Shown in pieces: positions 2,996-47,840 of a DNA stretch of 64,000 bases. The DNA is from Panopea generosa (Eukaryota; Mollusca; Bivalvia; Adapedonta; Hiatellidae): NCBI GenBank assembly GCA_029582155.1, contig CM055898.1, positions 24,310,839 through 24,374,838 on the forward strand, written 5' to 3'. Made by a program: the position numbers and the translations under genes. A model generated the notes under the pieces. It made no database searches and was not told the origin of the DNA. It worked only from the letters and a program-made list of their open reading frames with translations. Position 1 is the stretch's first letter. Every line of letters starts with the position of its first letter.

Positions 2996-5012
2996 TAGCT
3001 GGGCCTGGTTAGTTTAGTCAGTTGCACGTCTGACTATAAATCCAGGGGTCTTGAGTTCAAATCCCTGTTAATTCAGTCTCCGTGACTATTGATTGCATCT
3101 TACTGTCATTTAAATTTTGTCTCTAGCAGCTGATTAAAATGGGAAAGTGATCAGTTACTTGTGGAGATAGGTATGCTCAAGTACTTGTTAACCTTTCAAC
3201 TTGTAGAGATAGGTATGCTCAAGTACTTGTTAATCTTCCAACTTGTGGAGATAGGTATGCTCAAGTACTCGTTAACCTTCCAACTTGTAGTGATAGGTAT
3301 GCTCAAATACTTGTTAACCTTCCAACTTGTGGAGATAGGTATGCTCAAGTACTCGTTAACCTTACAACTTGCAGAGATAGGTATGCTCAAGTACTCGTTA
3401 ACCTTCCAACTTGCAGAGATAGGTATGCTCAAGTACTCGTTAACCTTCCAACATGTGGAAATAGGTATGCTCAAGTACTCGTTAACCTCCCAACTTGTGG
3501 AGATAGGTATGCTGAAGTACTCGTTAACCTTCCAACTTGTGGAGATAGGTATGCTCAAGTACTCGTTAACCTTCCAACTTGTGGAGATAGGTATGCTCAA
3601 GTACTCGTTAACCTTCCAACTTGTGGAGATAGGTATGCTCAAGTACTTGTTAACCTTCCAACTTGTGTTGGTAGGTATGCTCAAGTACTTGTAAACTTTC
3701 CAACTTGTAGAGTAAGGTATGCTCAAGTACTTGTTAACCTTCCAACTTGTAGAGATAGGTATGCTCAAGTACTCGTTAACCTTACAACTTGCAGAGATAG
3801 GTATGCTCAAGTACTCGTTAACCTTCCAACTTGCAGAGATAGGTATGCTCAAGTACTCGTTAACCTTCCAACATGTGGAAATAGGTATGCTCAAGTACTC
3901 GTTAACCTCCCAACTTGTGGAGATAGGTATGCTCAAGTACTCATTAACCTTCCAACTTGTGGAGATAGGTATGCTCAAGTACTCGTTAACCTTCCAACTT
4001 GTGGAGATAGGTATGCTCAAGTACTCGTTAACCTTCCAACTTGTGGAGATAGGTATGCTCAAGTACTTGTTAACCTTCCAACTTGTGTTGGTAGGTATGC
4101 TCAAGTACTTGTTAACTTTCCAACTTGTAGAGTAAGGTATGCTTAAGTACTTGTTAACCTTCCAACTTGTAGAGATAGGTATGCTCAAGTACTCGTTAAC
4201 ATTCCAACTTGTAGAGATTGTTAACCTTCCAACCTGTAGAGATAGGTATGCTCAAGTACTCGTTAACCTTCCAACTTGTAGAGATTGTTAACCTTCAAAC
4301 TTGTAGAGATAGGTATGCTCAGTTAATTGTTAACCTTTCAACTTGTAGAGATAGGTATGCTCATGTACTCGTTAACCTTCCAACTTGTGGAGATAGGTAT
4401 GCTCAAGTACTCGTTAACCTTCCAACTTGTGGAGATAGGTATGCTCAAGTACTCGTTAATCTTCCAACTTGTGGAGATAGGTATGTTCAAGTACTCGTTA
4501 ACCTTCCAACATGTGGAGATAGGTATGCTCAAGTACTCGTTAACCTTCCAACTTGTAGAGATAGGTATGCTTATGTACTCATTAACCTTCCAACTTGTGG
4601 AGATAGGTATGCTCAAGTACTCGTTAACCTTCCAACTTGTAGAGATAGGTATGCTCAAGTACTCGTTAACCTTCCAACTTGCGGAGATAGGTATGCTCAA
4701 GTACTCGTTAACCTTCCAACTTGCAGAGATAGGTATGCTCAAGTACTATTTAACCTTCCAACTTGCAGTGATAGTTATGCTCAAATACTCTTTAACTTTA
4801 CAACTTGCAGAGATAGGTATGCTCAAGTACTCGTTAACCTTCCAACTTGCAGAGATAGGTATGCTCAAGTACTCGTTAACCTTCCAACTTGCAGAGATAG
4901 GTATGCTCAAGTAATCGTTAACCTTCCAACTTGTAGAGATAACTCTTTAACCTTCCAGTATCCCAGGGAAGAGTGGGTAGGTTAAGTAATAGCCCTCGAT
5001 GGCATATATGTA
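2996..5012 (+). mobile_element. tRNA-derived SINE, family C, carrying an internal 1.8 kb minisatellite
   Basis: The 5' part is a normal family C head: A-box region TTAGTTTAGTCAG (3009-3021), B box GAGTTCAAATCC (3053-3064), then GGGAAAGTGATCAGTTACTTG. The 3' part, starting at 4958, is the normal family C tail: GTATCCCAGGGAAGAGTGG, GGTTAAG and CCCTCGATGGCAT. Between them, one 42-bp stretch of the SINE body has become about 43 tandem copies. Intact copies at 48.5 and 58.6 kb carry that stretch once, which shows the direction of change. Confidence 0.85.
3157..4957. repeat. 42-bp minisatellite grown from a SINE body (~43 copies)
   Basis: The unit starts ACTTGTRGAGATAGGTATGC and ends GTTAACCTTCCA. 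A ten-unit higher-order block of 420 bp is repeated almost exactly (about 3300-3718 and 3719-4138). Because 42 is a multiple of three and the unit lacks stops in several frames, long ORFs appear on both strands, including a 330-residue one on the minus strand made of 14-residue repeats. These are read-through artefacts: opposite strands are open at once and no start context is conserved. Confidence 0.9.
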
Positions 5013-5061
5013 ATTTTTTGTAATACAGTTAACCCCATTTTCAACACAATTACTTTAATGA

Positions 5062-6018
5062 TACAGTCAAACCTGTCTTAAGCAGTCAGCCAAGGGAAAG
5101 GGCCAAATTGGCTGCTTAAGACAGGTGGCTGCCTACTACAGGGTCATCAATTTTCACCCAGATTAGCGAAGTATTTTTGTATATTGGCACAATTTCACAA
5201 CCTCAACACGTTCATCCAAAGTCAAACACTTTCGTTTTGGTGGCATTGTTAACACGCTGACAATCAAAACATTTATGATTTAAGTCACAATAAATCATTT
5301 CCAAATTTTATATTTTTCCACAATTAGCGCTTTTTACAAGTGTGAACTTAATGAGTTAATTCCTTATCATTCATTAAAAGCACGAACAAACTGCCATTCT
5401 AATTATCGTCTCAAAAACGTTAGCTTCTTTAATCTTTTTATATTCCGACTTTTTCAGTTAACGTGTTTACACAAAACACTTTGATCTGTCTATTTTACCA
5501 TTTACGCAAGCTAAAAATAGCGATGTGAAAATTATCACGCACTACACTCGTGTTTGAGTTGGAAAAATTGCGATTATGTAGAAAACAATAACAGCTTTGT
5601 TTGGTTTGAGTCGGAAAAATGGCGATTATGTAGAACACAATAACAGCTTTGTTTGGTTTGTTTACGGCCAATTAAAAAAGTTTAAACTAAAAGAAATTTA
5701 TTTTAAATTAAAGATATATTATAATTATTTGATTTTTTTGGTTTTTAGTACTTTAATTAAATATTAATTCTGTGGCCGTAATGAAATTTTTATATGCCAA
5801 AATTGATATTTTACGTTAAAATTTGTTCATTTGGTGGCCGTTTTAGGAGGTTTTTTAATGCATTTTGGACGAAAAATGTTGGCCGCTGGCCGCATCGACC
5901 AGGTGACCGCCTATTGCAGTTAAATTATATAGTAAATTTCGACGGGAGGGTCTGAAACTGGCCGCTTAAGGCAGGTGGCTGCTTATAACAGGTGACCGTT
6001 AGTACAGGTTTGACTGTA
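5062..6018. mobile_element. Tc1/mariner-type MITE with 14-bp perfect terminal inverted repeats
   Basis: The left end ACAGTCAAACCTGT (5063-5076) is the exact reverse complement of the right end ACAGGTTTGACTGT (6004-6017). The element is flanked by TA (5062-5063 and 6017-6018), which fits the TA target-site duplication of the Tc1/mariner superfamily. Subterminal motifs of the GGCYGCTTAAGRCAGGTGG type lie near both ends in the same orientation. The ~955-bp interior has no transposase ORF, so it is non-autonomous. A 182-bp relative is at 12.5 kb and a decayed one at 1.1 kb. Confidence 0.85.
5550..5662. repeat. Two-copy tandem duplication inside the MITE (~57 bp)
   Basis: Two adjacent copies share GGAAAAATNGCGATTATGTAG and AACAATAACAGCTTTGTTTGG (each given as a short block). 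The duplication is inside the Tc1/mariner-type element and so happened in, or in the lineage of, this copy. Confidence 0.8.
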
Positions 6019-11379: not shown

Positions 11380-12765
11380 TTAAAGGGACAGAGTTTAAAA
11401 TCATTTTACTAATGTTTGCTCATCAAAAACATCTTGAGATCAACATTCTATGAAAATGTAATGACTTGGAAATATGAAGGTCCAAGTTTTATTACCTGAA
11501 ATTTAATATATAAGAATTTATAAGCAGTCTGCAAAGGAGGATGTTTACCAGAGTTGTGCCCCTTGACAGAACAAGAAAGAAATTAATACTTGATTACCAA
11601 CTGGGGTAATTTAATCTCATATTTGTATCAAGCAGATAATTTTATAAAATTCCGCCAATAGTGTTAAATTTTTGAATATTGCTATGTGTACCTTTAGCAA
11701 AGCTGTCTATAAAGGGGCATAACTCTAAAAAACAATTGAAAGGCATTATATTTCATATGTGAAAATATAATAATAATAATAGATATTTATTTCCATTATG
11801 TTTTACCAATATGATATACCATTCTAAAGAAATATCAGTTTGTATATTTTAAGAATCTTTGTTAAAAACTTGTGTGATTTTATTTGTTTTATAATAAATG
11901 TTGACACTTTCTTAAATATGGAGTTTCAGAATGATTCATTTTTTTTTCTCCTCACAATTTTGGGAAGATGTCCCAGACCCTTGGAATTGGGAATTTTAGC
12001 AGCGTTTCCATTAAAATTGGGAAAACTTTCATTGTATCTATTTGTTCATCTTTACAAAAATGTGTATGCTTGCTTCACTAACCATTTAATTCAAGATTCA
12101 ATTTCATACTCAGTTCAGAATGGGGAAAACTTTGTTTATTTTATCAAGGAAATATAGCATGTTTCACTACAATTATTGAAGCTTTCAATTGGGAACATTT
12201 ACCACTCAATTGGGAAAAAAAGATACTATTTGCCATTTGGAATATGACCCTATGAGTTTTTGTGTGTGTGTAATTAGTGCCTTGGGGTTGTGAAAATTAA
12301 AACTAGAAACTGCCGTGTATTAAAACATTCACTATGAACATCTACACCAAAAATATGGTAATCCCATTTTGCAGTATACCGTAAACCTGTCTGTTACGAA
12401 GAAGGAAGTTTTTATGTATGTGCTCGTATAACCTTATTGTTAGTAATGCATCAAATACTGTGCTCTCCATATAGGTTTTACTTAATTCATATTACAGTAA
12501 AACCTGTGTAAGTGGCCACCTCTATTAAGCAGCCACTTGTCTTAAGCAGCCACATTTGCTATTTCCCATTGTTATGCTTTCATAAAAAGTTACCCTGTAT
12601 TAAGCAACAACCTGTTTTAAAAGGCCATTTTTGCTCCATCTCACAACTGGCTGCTTAAAACAGGTTTGACTGTATTTTTGTTTTGTTATACATTCGTAAA
12701 GGTACAGATTAATCAGTATGAACTTCAGTAAATTTGGATTTCAACATTGGAGCATGTCCCTTTAA
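11380..12765. mobile_element. Possible TTAA-flanked element, ~1.4 kb
   Basis: TTAA followed by AGGGACA (11384-11390) on the left, and TGTCCCT followed by TTAA (12755-12765) on the right, form a 7-bp inverted repeat with TTAA at both outer ends. The inner flanks are only weakly similar. A Tc1/mariner-type MITE at 12.49 kb would be a nested insertion. A 7-bp match could be chance, so this is tentative. Confidence 0.3.
12493..12674. mobile_element. Short Tc1/mariner-type MITE (182 bp)
   Basis: Ends ACAGTAAAACCTGT and ACAGGTTTGACTGT are inverted repeats with one mismatch, flanked by TA at both sides. The interior repeats AAGNGGCCACC and TTAAGCAGCCAC motifs. It matches the terminal zones of the 957-bp element at 5.06 kb, so it looks like an internally deleted family member. 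Confidence 0.8.
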
Positions 12766-39385: not shown

Positions 39386-41900
39386 ATCAAACTGACCAAA
39401 CTACATCTAATTGACCTGACACGGGCTGTCAATCAAACAAGTTGATGATCCAATCAGCAGTCAATATTGGTTCCATTTCTACCATTTTGCTTAGACAAAC
39501 AATGTATAAGTAACACTACATTGTACTTACTTGCACATTCAAAGAATAAGTAACACTACATTGTATTTACTTGGAGAATCAATGTATAAGCAACACTTCA
39601 TTGTATTTACTTTGACAAGCAATGTATAAGCAACACTTCATTGTATTTGCTTGGACAAACAATGTATAAGCAACACTTCATTGTATTTGCTTGGACAAAC
39701 AATGTATAAGTTACACTACATTGTATTTACTTGGACAAACAATGTACAAGGTAGACTACATTGTATTTACTTGGACAAGCAATGTTTAAGTAACACTACA
39801 TTGTATTTACTTGGACAAGCAATGTGTAAGTAACACTACATTGTACTTACTTGGACAAGCAATGTATAAGTAACACTACATCCTATTTACTTGGACAAAC
39901 AATGTATAAGTAACACTTCATTGTATTTACTTGCACATTCAAAGAATAAGTAACACTACATTGTATTTACTTGCACATTCAAAGAATAAGTAACACTACA
40001 TTGTATTTACTTTGACAAGCAATGTATAAGCAACACTTCATTGTATTTGCTTGGACAAACAATGTATAAGTTACACTACATTGTATTTACTTGGACAAAC
40101 AATGTACAAGGTAGACTACATTGTATTTACTTGGACAAGCAATGTTTAAGTAACACTACATTGTATTTACTTGGACAAGCAATGTGTAAGTAACACTACA
40201 TTGTACTTACTTGGACAAGCAATGTATAAGTAACACTACATCCTATTTACTTGGACAAACAATGTATAAGTAACACTTCATTGTATTTACTTGGACAAAC
40301 AATGTATAAGTCACACTACATTGTATTTGCGTGGAGAATGTATAAGTAACACTATATTGTATTTGCTTGGACAAGCAATGTATAAGTAACGTGTCATTGA
40401 TTTTACTTGAAAAAACAATGTATATCAGTAACACTACATTGTATTTTCTTGGACAAGCAATGTTTAAGTAACATTACATTGTATTTACTTAGACAAACAA
40501 TGTTAAAGTAACACCACATTGTATTAACATGGACAAACAATGTATAATTAACACTTCATTGTATTTACTTGGACAAACAATGTTAAAGTCACACTACATT
40601 GTATTTGCGTCGACAATGTATAAGTAACACTATATTGTATTTGCTTGGACAAGCAATGTATAAGTAACACGTCATTGATTTTACTTGGAAAAACAATGTA
40701 TATAAGTAACACTACATTGTAATTTCTTGGACAATCAATGTTTAAGTAACATTACATTGTATTTATTTGGACAAAGAATGTTTAAGTAACACCACATTGT
40801 ATTTACATGGACAAGCAATGTATAATTAACACTTCATTGTATTTACTTTGACAAGCAATGTATAAGTAACTGAACACTGTATTTATATGGACAAGCAATG
40901 TAAAAGTAACAGTAAATTGTATTTTCTTGGACAAGCAATGTATAAGTAACACTACATTGTATTTACTTGGACAAACAATGTATAAGTAACACTACATTGT
41001 ATTTACTTGGAGAAGCAATGTATAAGTAACTGAACATTGTATTTGTTTGGACAACCAATGTATAAGTAACACTACATTGTATTTACTTGGACAAGCAATG
41101 TATAAGTAACACTTCATTGTATTTATTTGGACAAGCAATGTATAGGTAACACTTCATTGTATTTACTTGGACAAGCAATGTAGAAGTAACACTACATTGT
41201 ATTTATTTGGCGAAGCAATGTATAAGAAACACTACATTGTATTTGCTTGGACAAGCAATGTATAAGTTACACTACATTGTATTTATTTGGACAAGCAATG
41301 TATAAGTAACACTTCATTGTATTTACTTGGACAAGCAATGTAGAAGTAACACTACATTGTATTTATTTGGCGAAGCAATGTATAAGAAACACTACATTGT
41401 ATTTGCTTGGACAAGCAATGTATAAGTAACACTACATTGTATTTATTTTGACAAGCAATGTATAAGTAACACTTCATTGTATTTACTTGAACAAGCAATG
41501 TATAAGTAACACTACATTTTATTTAATTGTCCAAGCAATGTATAAGTAACACTACATTGTATTTGCTTGGACAAGCAATGTATAAGTAACACTTCATTGT
41601 ATTTGCTTGGACAAGCAATGTATAAGTAACACTTCATTATAGTTACTTGGACAAGCAATGTATAGGTAACACTACATTGTATTTATTTGGACAAGCAATG
41701 TATAAGTAACACTTCATTATATTTACTTGGACTAGCAATGTATAAGTAACACTACATTGTATTTAATTGACCAAGCAATGTATAAGTAACACTACATTGT
41801 ATTTGCTTGGACAAGCAATGTATAAATAACACTTCATTGTAGTTACTTGGACAAGCAATGTATAAGTAACACTACATTGTAATTACTTGGACAAGCAATG
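39386..41900 (+). repeat. Dispersed repeat whose unit expanded into a 40-bp minisatellite (~60 copies)
   Basis: The left ~100 bases (TGACCTGACACGGGCTGTC, AATCAAACAAGTTGATG, CCAATCAGCAGTCAATATTG) are unique to the repeat's body. From 39489 the unit ACAAGCAATGTATAAGTAAC plus ACTACATTGTATTTACTTGG is tandem to 41900. Each unit has an inverted CAATGTA / TACATTG. A 360-bp (nine-unit) block from about 39621 is repeated exactly 360 bp later, and a 160-bp (four-unit) block at 41161 recurs at 41321. A minus-strand relative at 47.69 kb has the unit only about once. Confidence 0.88.
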
Positions 41901-42269
41901 TTACGTGGGCAATAGTCTTTTTTGCATCAGGTCAATTGTTTTTCCCATCAGAAATAAAAAAGAAACAGTCTCCAAATGAAAACCCTTATAAAGAATAGCA
42001 AGCAACCATGGTCAAGAGGTTACCCCTGTGGCCCCATTGTTGTTCCTCTTAAGATAACAAGCAACCACTGCCTCTAGAGAGATTTCTGTTGTTGTAAATA
42101 AGCTTATTTTACACTGCCACCAGTTTACTCAAGGGCGATGCCCCCAGAAGAGAGTTTATCTTTTTATGTTTGCAGGGGATAGTGCAGGATACAGATTATA
42201 ACCCATCATAAGTTTCTTCTGGTTCTTAAGCATGCTCGGTGTATAGCAAAGTTACACAGGCCTTCTGTT
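41901..42269. other. Non-coding stretch, nothing recognised
   Basis: AACAAGCAACCA-type words recur twice (~42000 and ~42056); otherwise nothing. Confidence 0.4.
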
Positions 42270-47649: not shown

Positions 47650-47840
47650 GAGAATGACTACCGCTCTTCGCACTGACCACAAATCATTGTCCAAGTAAAT
47701 ACAATGTAGAGTTAATTTATATATCATCAGCTTTTCTAAGAAAAAAAGTGAAATAGAAAGCAATATTGATCGCTGATTGGACTGTTGAGTTGTTTGATTG
47801 ACAGCCCATGTCAGGCCAATTAGTATATTTTAGCTATAAG
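47650..47840 (-). repeat. Single-unit relative of the 40-bp array's parent repeat
   Basis: On the minus strand: GGCCTGACATGGGCTGTC, AATCAAACAACTCAACAG, CCAATCAGCGATCAATATTG, then CTCTACATTGTATTTACTTG. The order matches the left flank and first unit of the array at 39.4 kb, but the 40-bp unit occurs only about once. It marks the pre-expansion state. The element's class is unknown. Confidence 0.75.

Follow-up and report, generated by a model that had tools for sequence, protein, structure and literature searches.

A minisatellite inside a SINE copy of Panopea generosa and further tandem arrays built on the same SINE family

A 42-bp tandem array occupies the interior of a SINE copy in the stretch of Panopea generosa DNA analyzed here (64 kb; hereafter, the window). 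We consider it very probable that this SINE was inserted and decayed, and that a 42-bp piece of it was subsequently duplicated in place and grew, as one instance of a process of minisatellite formation that operates across the genome. On the basis of the other arrays read in this genome, we lean toward the view that SINE copies become tandem arrays repeatedly and, for the most part, independently of each other, and that the stages of this conversion have been kept, from an identical dimer via tens of units to an array of ~14.6 kb. The proposal of a SINE-born array made in the initial annotation is supported by the DNA sequence in four respects: the unit is internal to the SINE, SINE flanks are present on both sides, the piece is single in the other SINE copies of the window, and the head-to-tail junction is confined to the focal locus.

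The focal array and its parent SINE

Tandem Repeats Finder placed the array at positions 3157-4941 of the window, with a period of 42, 42.3 copies, 89% matches and a score of 2645. Its head-to-tail junction, TTAACCTTCCA followed directly by ACTTG, occurs 43 times in the 64-kb window when up to two mismatches are allowed; in 100 shuffles, the mean was 0.11 and the maximum 2. Both counts agree with the approximately 43 repeats of a SINE-body piece reported in the initial annotation, and the SINE head and SINE tail that it had placed before and after the array were recovered by alignment to the SINE consensus. When the array is divided into its units, 39 are complete 42-mers, two measure 67 bp, and the last one is shortened. 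The features of the locus are as follows.

2997-3156, + strand: SINE 5' part (putatively tRNA-like head and start of the body), consensus 1-164; 76.5% identity over 166 aligned columns, alignment with other copies
3157-4941, + strand: 42-bp tandem array, unit equivalent to SINE consensus 165-207; Tandem Repeats Finder, unit mapping, locus-unique junction in the genome search
3325-3744, + strand: ten-unit (420-bp) block, copy 1; 5 of 420 bases differ from 3745-4164, minimum of differences at lag 10
3745-4164, + strand: ten-unit block, copy 2; comparison with 3325-3744
4207-4340, + strand: two 67-bp units (42-bp unit plus 25-bp partial unit, twice); unit cutting, Tandem Repeats Finder 4151-4352 with period 67
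4929-4957, + strand: final unit, reduced in length by an internal deletion and running into the SINE tail; sequence reading, unit cutting
4957-5006, + strand: SINE 3' part, consensus 207-264, extreme 3' end unrecognisable; 75.9% identity over 58 aligned columns

A different dispersed repeat is located immediately 3' of the SINE tail (5061-5144) and recurs in the window at 5955-5992 and 12519-12675.

The earlier statement that the array also grew by duplication of a 420-bp block is borne out by the near-identity of the two ten-unit blocks, and differences between units across the array are smallest at a lag of 10. Since assemblers are prone to misjudge near-identical blocks of this kind, the array or its length might be taken for an assembly artefact. 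We regard this as very improbable, given that the units differ from each other by 8.3% on average, that their variants form an ordered set, and that twenty comparable arrays were read elsewhere in the genome. Long open reading frames run through the array; a coding meaning for them was set aside, because the 42-bp unit amounts to 14 codons and can itself keep a frame open.

The focal array is a single-locus minisatellite and not a satellite. Its unit resembles a piece of a dispersed element (83.7% match to SINE consensus 165-207 over 43 columns) and the array lies inside a copy of that same element, as is expected of a minisatellite derived from a transposable element (TE). The 39 full units exceed the minimum of four middle units by which the tandem SINE part of the squamate SINE-derived satellites (sSats) is recognized; however, these satellites are further defined by one unit occurring at many loci, whereas the genome search found the focal junction at one locus only. 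Satellite DNA is characterized by long arrays that belong to one family and lie at many loci or in heterochromatin, and with respect to locus count the focal DNA is one array of 1.8 kb. What had been described as the birth of a satellite from a mobile element is therefore upheld as to the origin in a SINE, but the product is a minisatellite at a single locus.

Our consensus of the parent SINE measures 297 nt and was built from 15 rows taken from the window and from fetched loci, with its ends set by hand; three of these rows are array-bearing SINEs (L016 with its duplicated counterpart L017, and a SINE from L019). Ordinary copies of ~297 nt form one length class without coding capacity and are dispersed over many contigs. 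ARAGORN, run with relaxed settings on the consensus, placed a tRNA-like fold at 7-78, but the body, at 180-256, yielded a fold as well. The SINE head and the tRNA-Val gene of the window (ARAGORN, 2011-2082), ~1 kb upstream, have 26 nt in common at 88%. Together with the fold, this likeness suggests that the head may be tRNA-like; with Rfam, no tRNA was matched in any of three ordinary SINE copies or at the focal copy.

Six other SINE copies in the window had been named as carrying the 42-bp piece once. The piece is indeed single in all six, but its 3' end is shorter by ~10 nt in the copies at 59.4 and 62.0 kb, and a few internal nt are missing from it in the copy at 48.5 kb. Additional copies or fragments lie near 6.2, 36.8, 37.9, 42.4, 50.4 and 58.6 kb, and no SINE of the window except the focal one was found to have the piece in more than one copy. 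A deletion of ~10 nt just 3' of GGTTA is common to the SINEs at 59.4 kb, 62.0 kb and L019:112-395, and perhaps marks a subfamily.

The reverse order of events, in which the array came first and either received the SINE by insertion or gave rise to the SINE body, is extremely improbable. Nothing was found in its favor; the unit is internal to the SINE and single in ordinary copies, and the correct order of head and tail is kept on either side of the array. No array of the focal unit was seen without SINE flanks, and the other SINE copies examined mostly have the piece once. Searching the 1.474-Gb assembly (39 contigs) for the focal junction with up to three mismatches returned 39 matches, every one of them at the focal locus (39/39), while the reversed-pattern control returned 0 in the genome. 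This distribution argues that the focal array was most likely born in place.

Further SINE-derived arrays in the genome

Each of the 20 further arrays that we read in the P. generosa genome is built on a piece of the focal SINE family. A search with three focal units, of which the best 40 of 209 candidates were scored, gave multi-unit matches outside the focal locus; 14 stretches (L013-L026) were fetched and, with L016 and L017 as well as L024 and L025 merged, represent 12 arrays. The eight later arrays, to which searches with tripled SINE pieces led, are L033, L063 (merged with L065), L064, L066, L068, L069, L070 and L071. The resulting number of 21, focal array included, is a lower bound, the array-like places from searches with tripled pieces having been only partly fetched. 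A singular origin event at the focal locus is ruled out by these at least 21 arrays.

Unit lengths of 29, 34, 35, 37, 40, 42, 43, 44, 45, 46, 49, 53, 70 and 84 bp occur among the 21 arrays. Positions between 153 and 249 are the source of 17 of them, the SINE head (5-51) of three, and 53-126 of one; the L014 unit matches the SINE over only 24 of its 43 bp. Most arrays have unit limits of their own. Those of L018 and L020 are nearly alike, and these two arrays are possibly not independent of each other. In 14 of the 21 arrays (the 12 in the flank test, L014, and the C10 array), both SINE ends are visible, and in the remaining seven, at least one end was not found or lies outside the stretch.

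The arrays form a graded series. At its lower end stands L015, a two-unit array formed by a 53-bp duplication whose halves are 100% identical, followed by L066 with four units, L022 with 5, L063 with 6, L064 with 9, L013 with 11, and L014 and L023 with 18 each. Larger arrays are those of L019 (24 units), L021 (~27), L033 (27), L016 (~28), L020 (30), the focal locus (42) and L018 (77). The arrays of L026, L068, L070 and L071 are truncated by the stretch ends, and that of L069 is irregular, with a 70-bp unit. The longest array among those read is the C10 array (L024, L025, L067), which extends from 47363944 to ~47378526 and comprises ~14.6 kb and ~347 units, a length that spans ~500 unread bases between two fetched stretches. 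Its 42-bp unit consists of SINE 183-220 plus 4 nt, with the SINE head on one side of the array and the tail on the other.

Some array-bearing DNA has itself been duplicated. L016 and L017 (C2:25.08 and 26.15 Mb) carry the same SINE with a 40-bp array in opposite orientations and at a distance of ~1.06 Mb, a duplication whose copies are of unequal length (27.6 versus 24.6 units). L063 (C21:0.756 Mb) and L065 (C10:70.43 Mb) are 99.2% alike over 1201 bp and contain the same six-unit SINE array. Scores equal or similar to theirs were obtained at C19:0.456, C11:0.360, C1:4.93, C25:3.94 and C21:4.75 Mb, several of them near contig ends, which suggests that these places are further copies of one duplicated block.

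Order of events, mechanism and the role of the SINE

For the 21 arrays, the SINE flanks were compared with the SINE consensus and the units with their own consensus. In all 18 arrays with a measurable flank (L068, L069 and L071 have none), the units were more alike than the flanks were to the SINE consensus; the self-made consensus somewhat favors the units in this comparison, and homogenization by gene conversion can lower the apparent age of an array. At the focal locus, the units were 94.7% like their own consensus, and the flanks 76.3% like that of the SINE. Expansion therefore came after insertion and decay. Both halves of L015 carry two identical substitutions that are absent from the 15 aligned rows, and the L015 duplication thus postdates the insertion of this SINE.

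These data also bear on the idea that a source SINE already contained the tandem repeat, or that reverse transcription produced it, and that it arrived or spread by retrotransposition. Internal duplications in SINEs are known (PMC10702118), and L018 and L020 nearly agree in their unit limits. Nevertheless, we give this idea very little credence, because the focal junction is found at the focal locus only, most other arrays differ in their limits, the substitutions common to both L015 halves are specific to that copy, and the arrays are younger than their flanks in 18 of 18 cases.

In the favored sequence of insertion, decay and in-place growth, the SINE would have been inserted at the focal locus long ago and would then have decayed, before 42 bp of its interior underwent a single DNA-level duplication, possibly via slippage, template switching or the joining of a staggered break. 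The register set by this first duplication would have allowed more slippage or unequal exchange, and subsequent growth would have added single units, the 420-bp ten-unit block and partial units of 25 bp. Unequal exchange or slippage as the mode of growth is suggested by the ten-unit block together with the 67-bp units. How the first duplication and the growth came about enzymatically is inferred, as is a general process, rather than the SINE, as the driver.

Breakpoint microhomology relative to the SINE consensus averaged 1.17 bp in 12 arrays (L014 and the eight later arrays were left out) versus 0.81 bp for random placement (P = 0.15); it was measured on the consensus and not on each founder, and the limits of L018 and L020 were set by eye. 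Microhomology as the cause was rejected, since over these 12 arrays it does not exceed random placement. With so little of it, slippage, template switching and end joining are all possible first steps. The focal piece has end repeats of 0 bp on the consensus, so that the short direct repeats of the Haber and Louis model are absent from it; in L015, its own sequence, read by eye, suggests AAG at both ends of the duplication. We do not treat short direct repeats at the piece ends as defining for this family, because the Haber and Louis and slippage models combined may account for no more than 6% of TE-derived arrays, according to the account given in PMC3389668.

The window itself contains 13 arrays of at least 300 bp, which take up 18.2 of its 64 kb (28%) and have units of 22-146 bp. 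The SINE family makes up 5.7% of the window bases outside arrays, from which 0.74 SINE-derived arrays are expected; one of 13 was seen, in a comparison that comprises one window and one event. For the other twelve arrays, no overlap with the SINE consensus was found at E 1e-6. A preference for SINEs over other DNA is thus unsupported in the window, and we read the focal array as a product of general minisatellite formation made legible by SINEs. The 40-bp unit of a 60-copy array (39486-41901) matches 28 nt at 47717 (92.9%) and 24 nt at L051:1144 (91.7%), and this array may also derive from a dispersed element.

A stronger role for the SINE would follow if its body, at ~155-250, started tandem duplications more often than other DNA. 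We consider such a hotspot unlikely, although several observations speak for it. The arrays are concentrated between consensus 153 and 249 (17/21), and the short palindromes CTCGAG, AGTACT, GGTTAACC and GGATCC lie within 185-213. When pieces of the focal copy were tripled and used as queries, the unit led to 13 array-like places besides the focal one (best 40 of 182 candidates scored) and the piece 3' of the unit to 11 (12/12 scored), compared to 4 and 1 for the first and second head pieces (20/20 and 12/12 scored) and to none among the best 40 of 72 candidates for the piece just before the array; 3082-3123 and the part beyond 4998 were left out. Array-like was judged by eye in these searches, as several neighboring matches or one match over ~2 units. 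However, these are minimum counts rather than rates; at most 40 candidates were scored per search, and common words were skipped. In addition, several of the 11 places are probably copies of the one duplicated block represented by L063 and L065. Moreover, the focal unit was the query by which 13 of the 21 arrays, counting the focal array itself, were detected or defined, which biases their position; arrays also come from consensus 5-51 and 53-126, and the SINE share of the window arrays is as expected. Tripled pieces of the consensus had yielded three array loci for the unit (best 40 of 108) and one for 85-126 (best 40 of 851). They are poor controls, as near-exact ordinary copies took most of the scored places, and it was because of this swamping that we switched to pieces of the focal copy.

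Relation to known SINE-derived arrays

The value of the P. generosa arrays lies in their graded series within one genome, and it is the number and grading of the events that merit attention. The onset of minisatellites is poorly explained, known models covering perhaps so small a part of the TE-derived cases (PMC3389668). Here, the ancestral sequence and the flanks are readable and many stages exist in parallel, so that a known template is available for comparison with the starting duplication, and the steps of growth can be ordered. If SINE copies are repeatedly and mostly independently converted, the SINE would serve as a built-in label with which birth rate, breakpoint rules and minisatellite growth become measurable across very many known starts.

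SINE-derived tandem arrays are already published for other SINE families, namely for human Alu and for those of squamates and a limpet. Bivalve SINEs have been included in a survey of transposable elements (PMC10294476), and we found no account of a single-locus, SINE-flanked minisatellite in a mollusc in the open-licence literature that we searched.

Human minisatellites have been derived from Alu and other TEs (PMC3389668, citing Jurka and Gentles 2006); 23% of human minisatellites and satellites are reported as TE-derived, with Alu as the top source after exclusion of two families that have built-in repeats (PMC3389668). As we propose for P. generosa, units in these human arrays are described to arise inside single TE copies after insertion and to grow by local duplication, and AluS likewise has regions with more arrays (PMC3389668). 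Alu-derived arrays have a mean of 2.3-2.4 units, depending on the subfamily (PMC3389668), versus 2 to ~347 units here, in a search that favored long arrays.

In the limpet Patella caerulea, PcH-Sat derives in part from a Nin-SINE and is, like the focal array, a SINE-derived tandem repeat of a mollusc (PMC11121367). Unlike the focal array, it has a 179-bp unit, makes up ~10% of the genome and is mainly pericentromeric, and the sections of that report available to us describe no single-locus, SINE-flanked stage (PMC11121367).

The squamate reptiles, with their SINE-derived satellites sSat1-3, provide a further parallel (PMC10702118). There as here, a SINE piece is present in tandem in a few to hundreds of units, with limits that differ among taxa; in a cobra sample, sSat units were 89% alike versus 64% for the SINEs, and sSat loci with both SINE ends, which the focal locus resembles, are reported as an uncommon variant (PMC10702118). 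The two systems differ in that sSat units measure ~70-290 nt, compared to 29-84 bp in P. generosa, and in that snakes have one uniform major sSat variant at many loci, whereas the limits are mostly locus-specific here (PMC10702118). Finally, most sSats keep one SINE end (PMC10702118), while both ends can be seen in two-thirds (14/21) of the P. generosa arrays.
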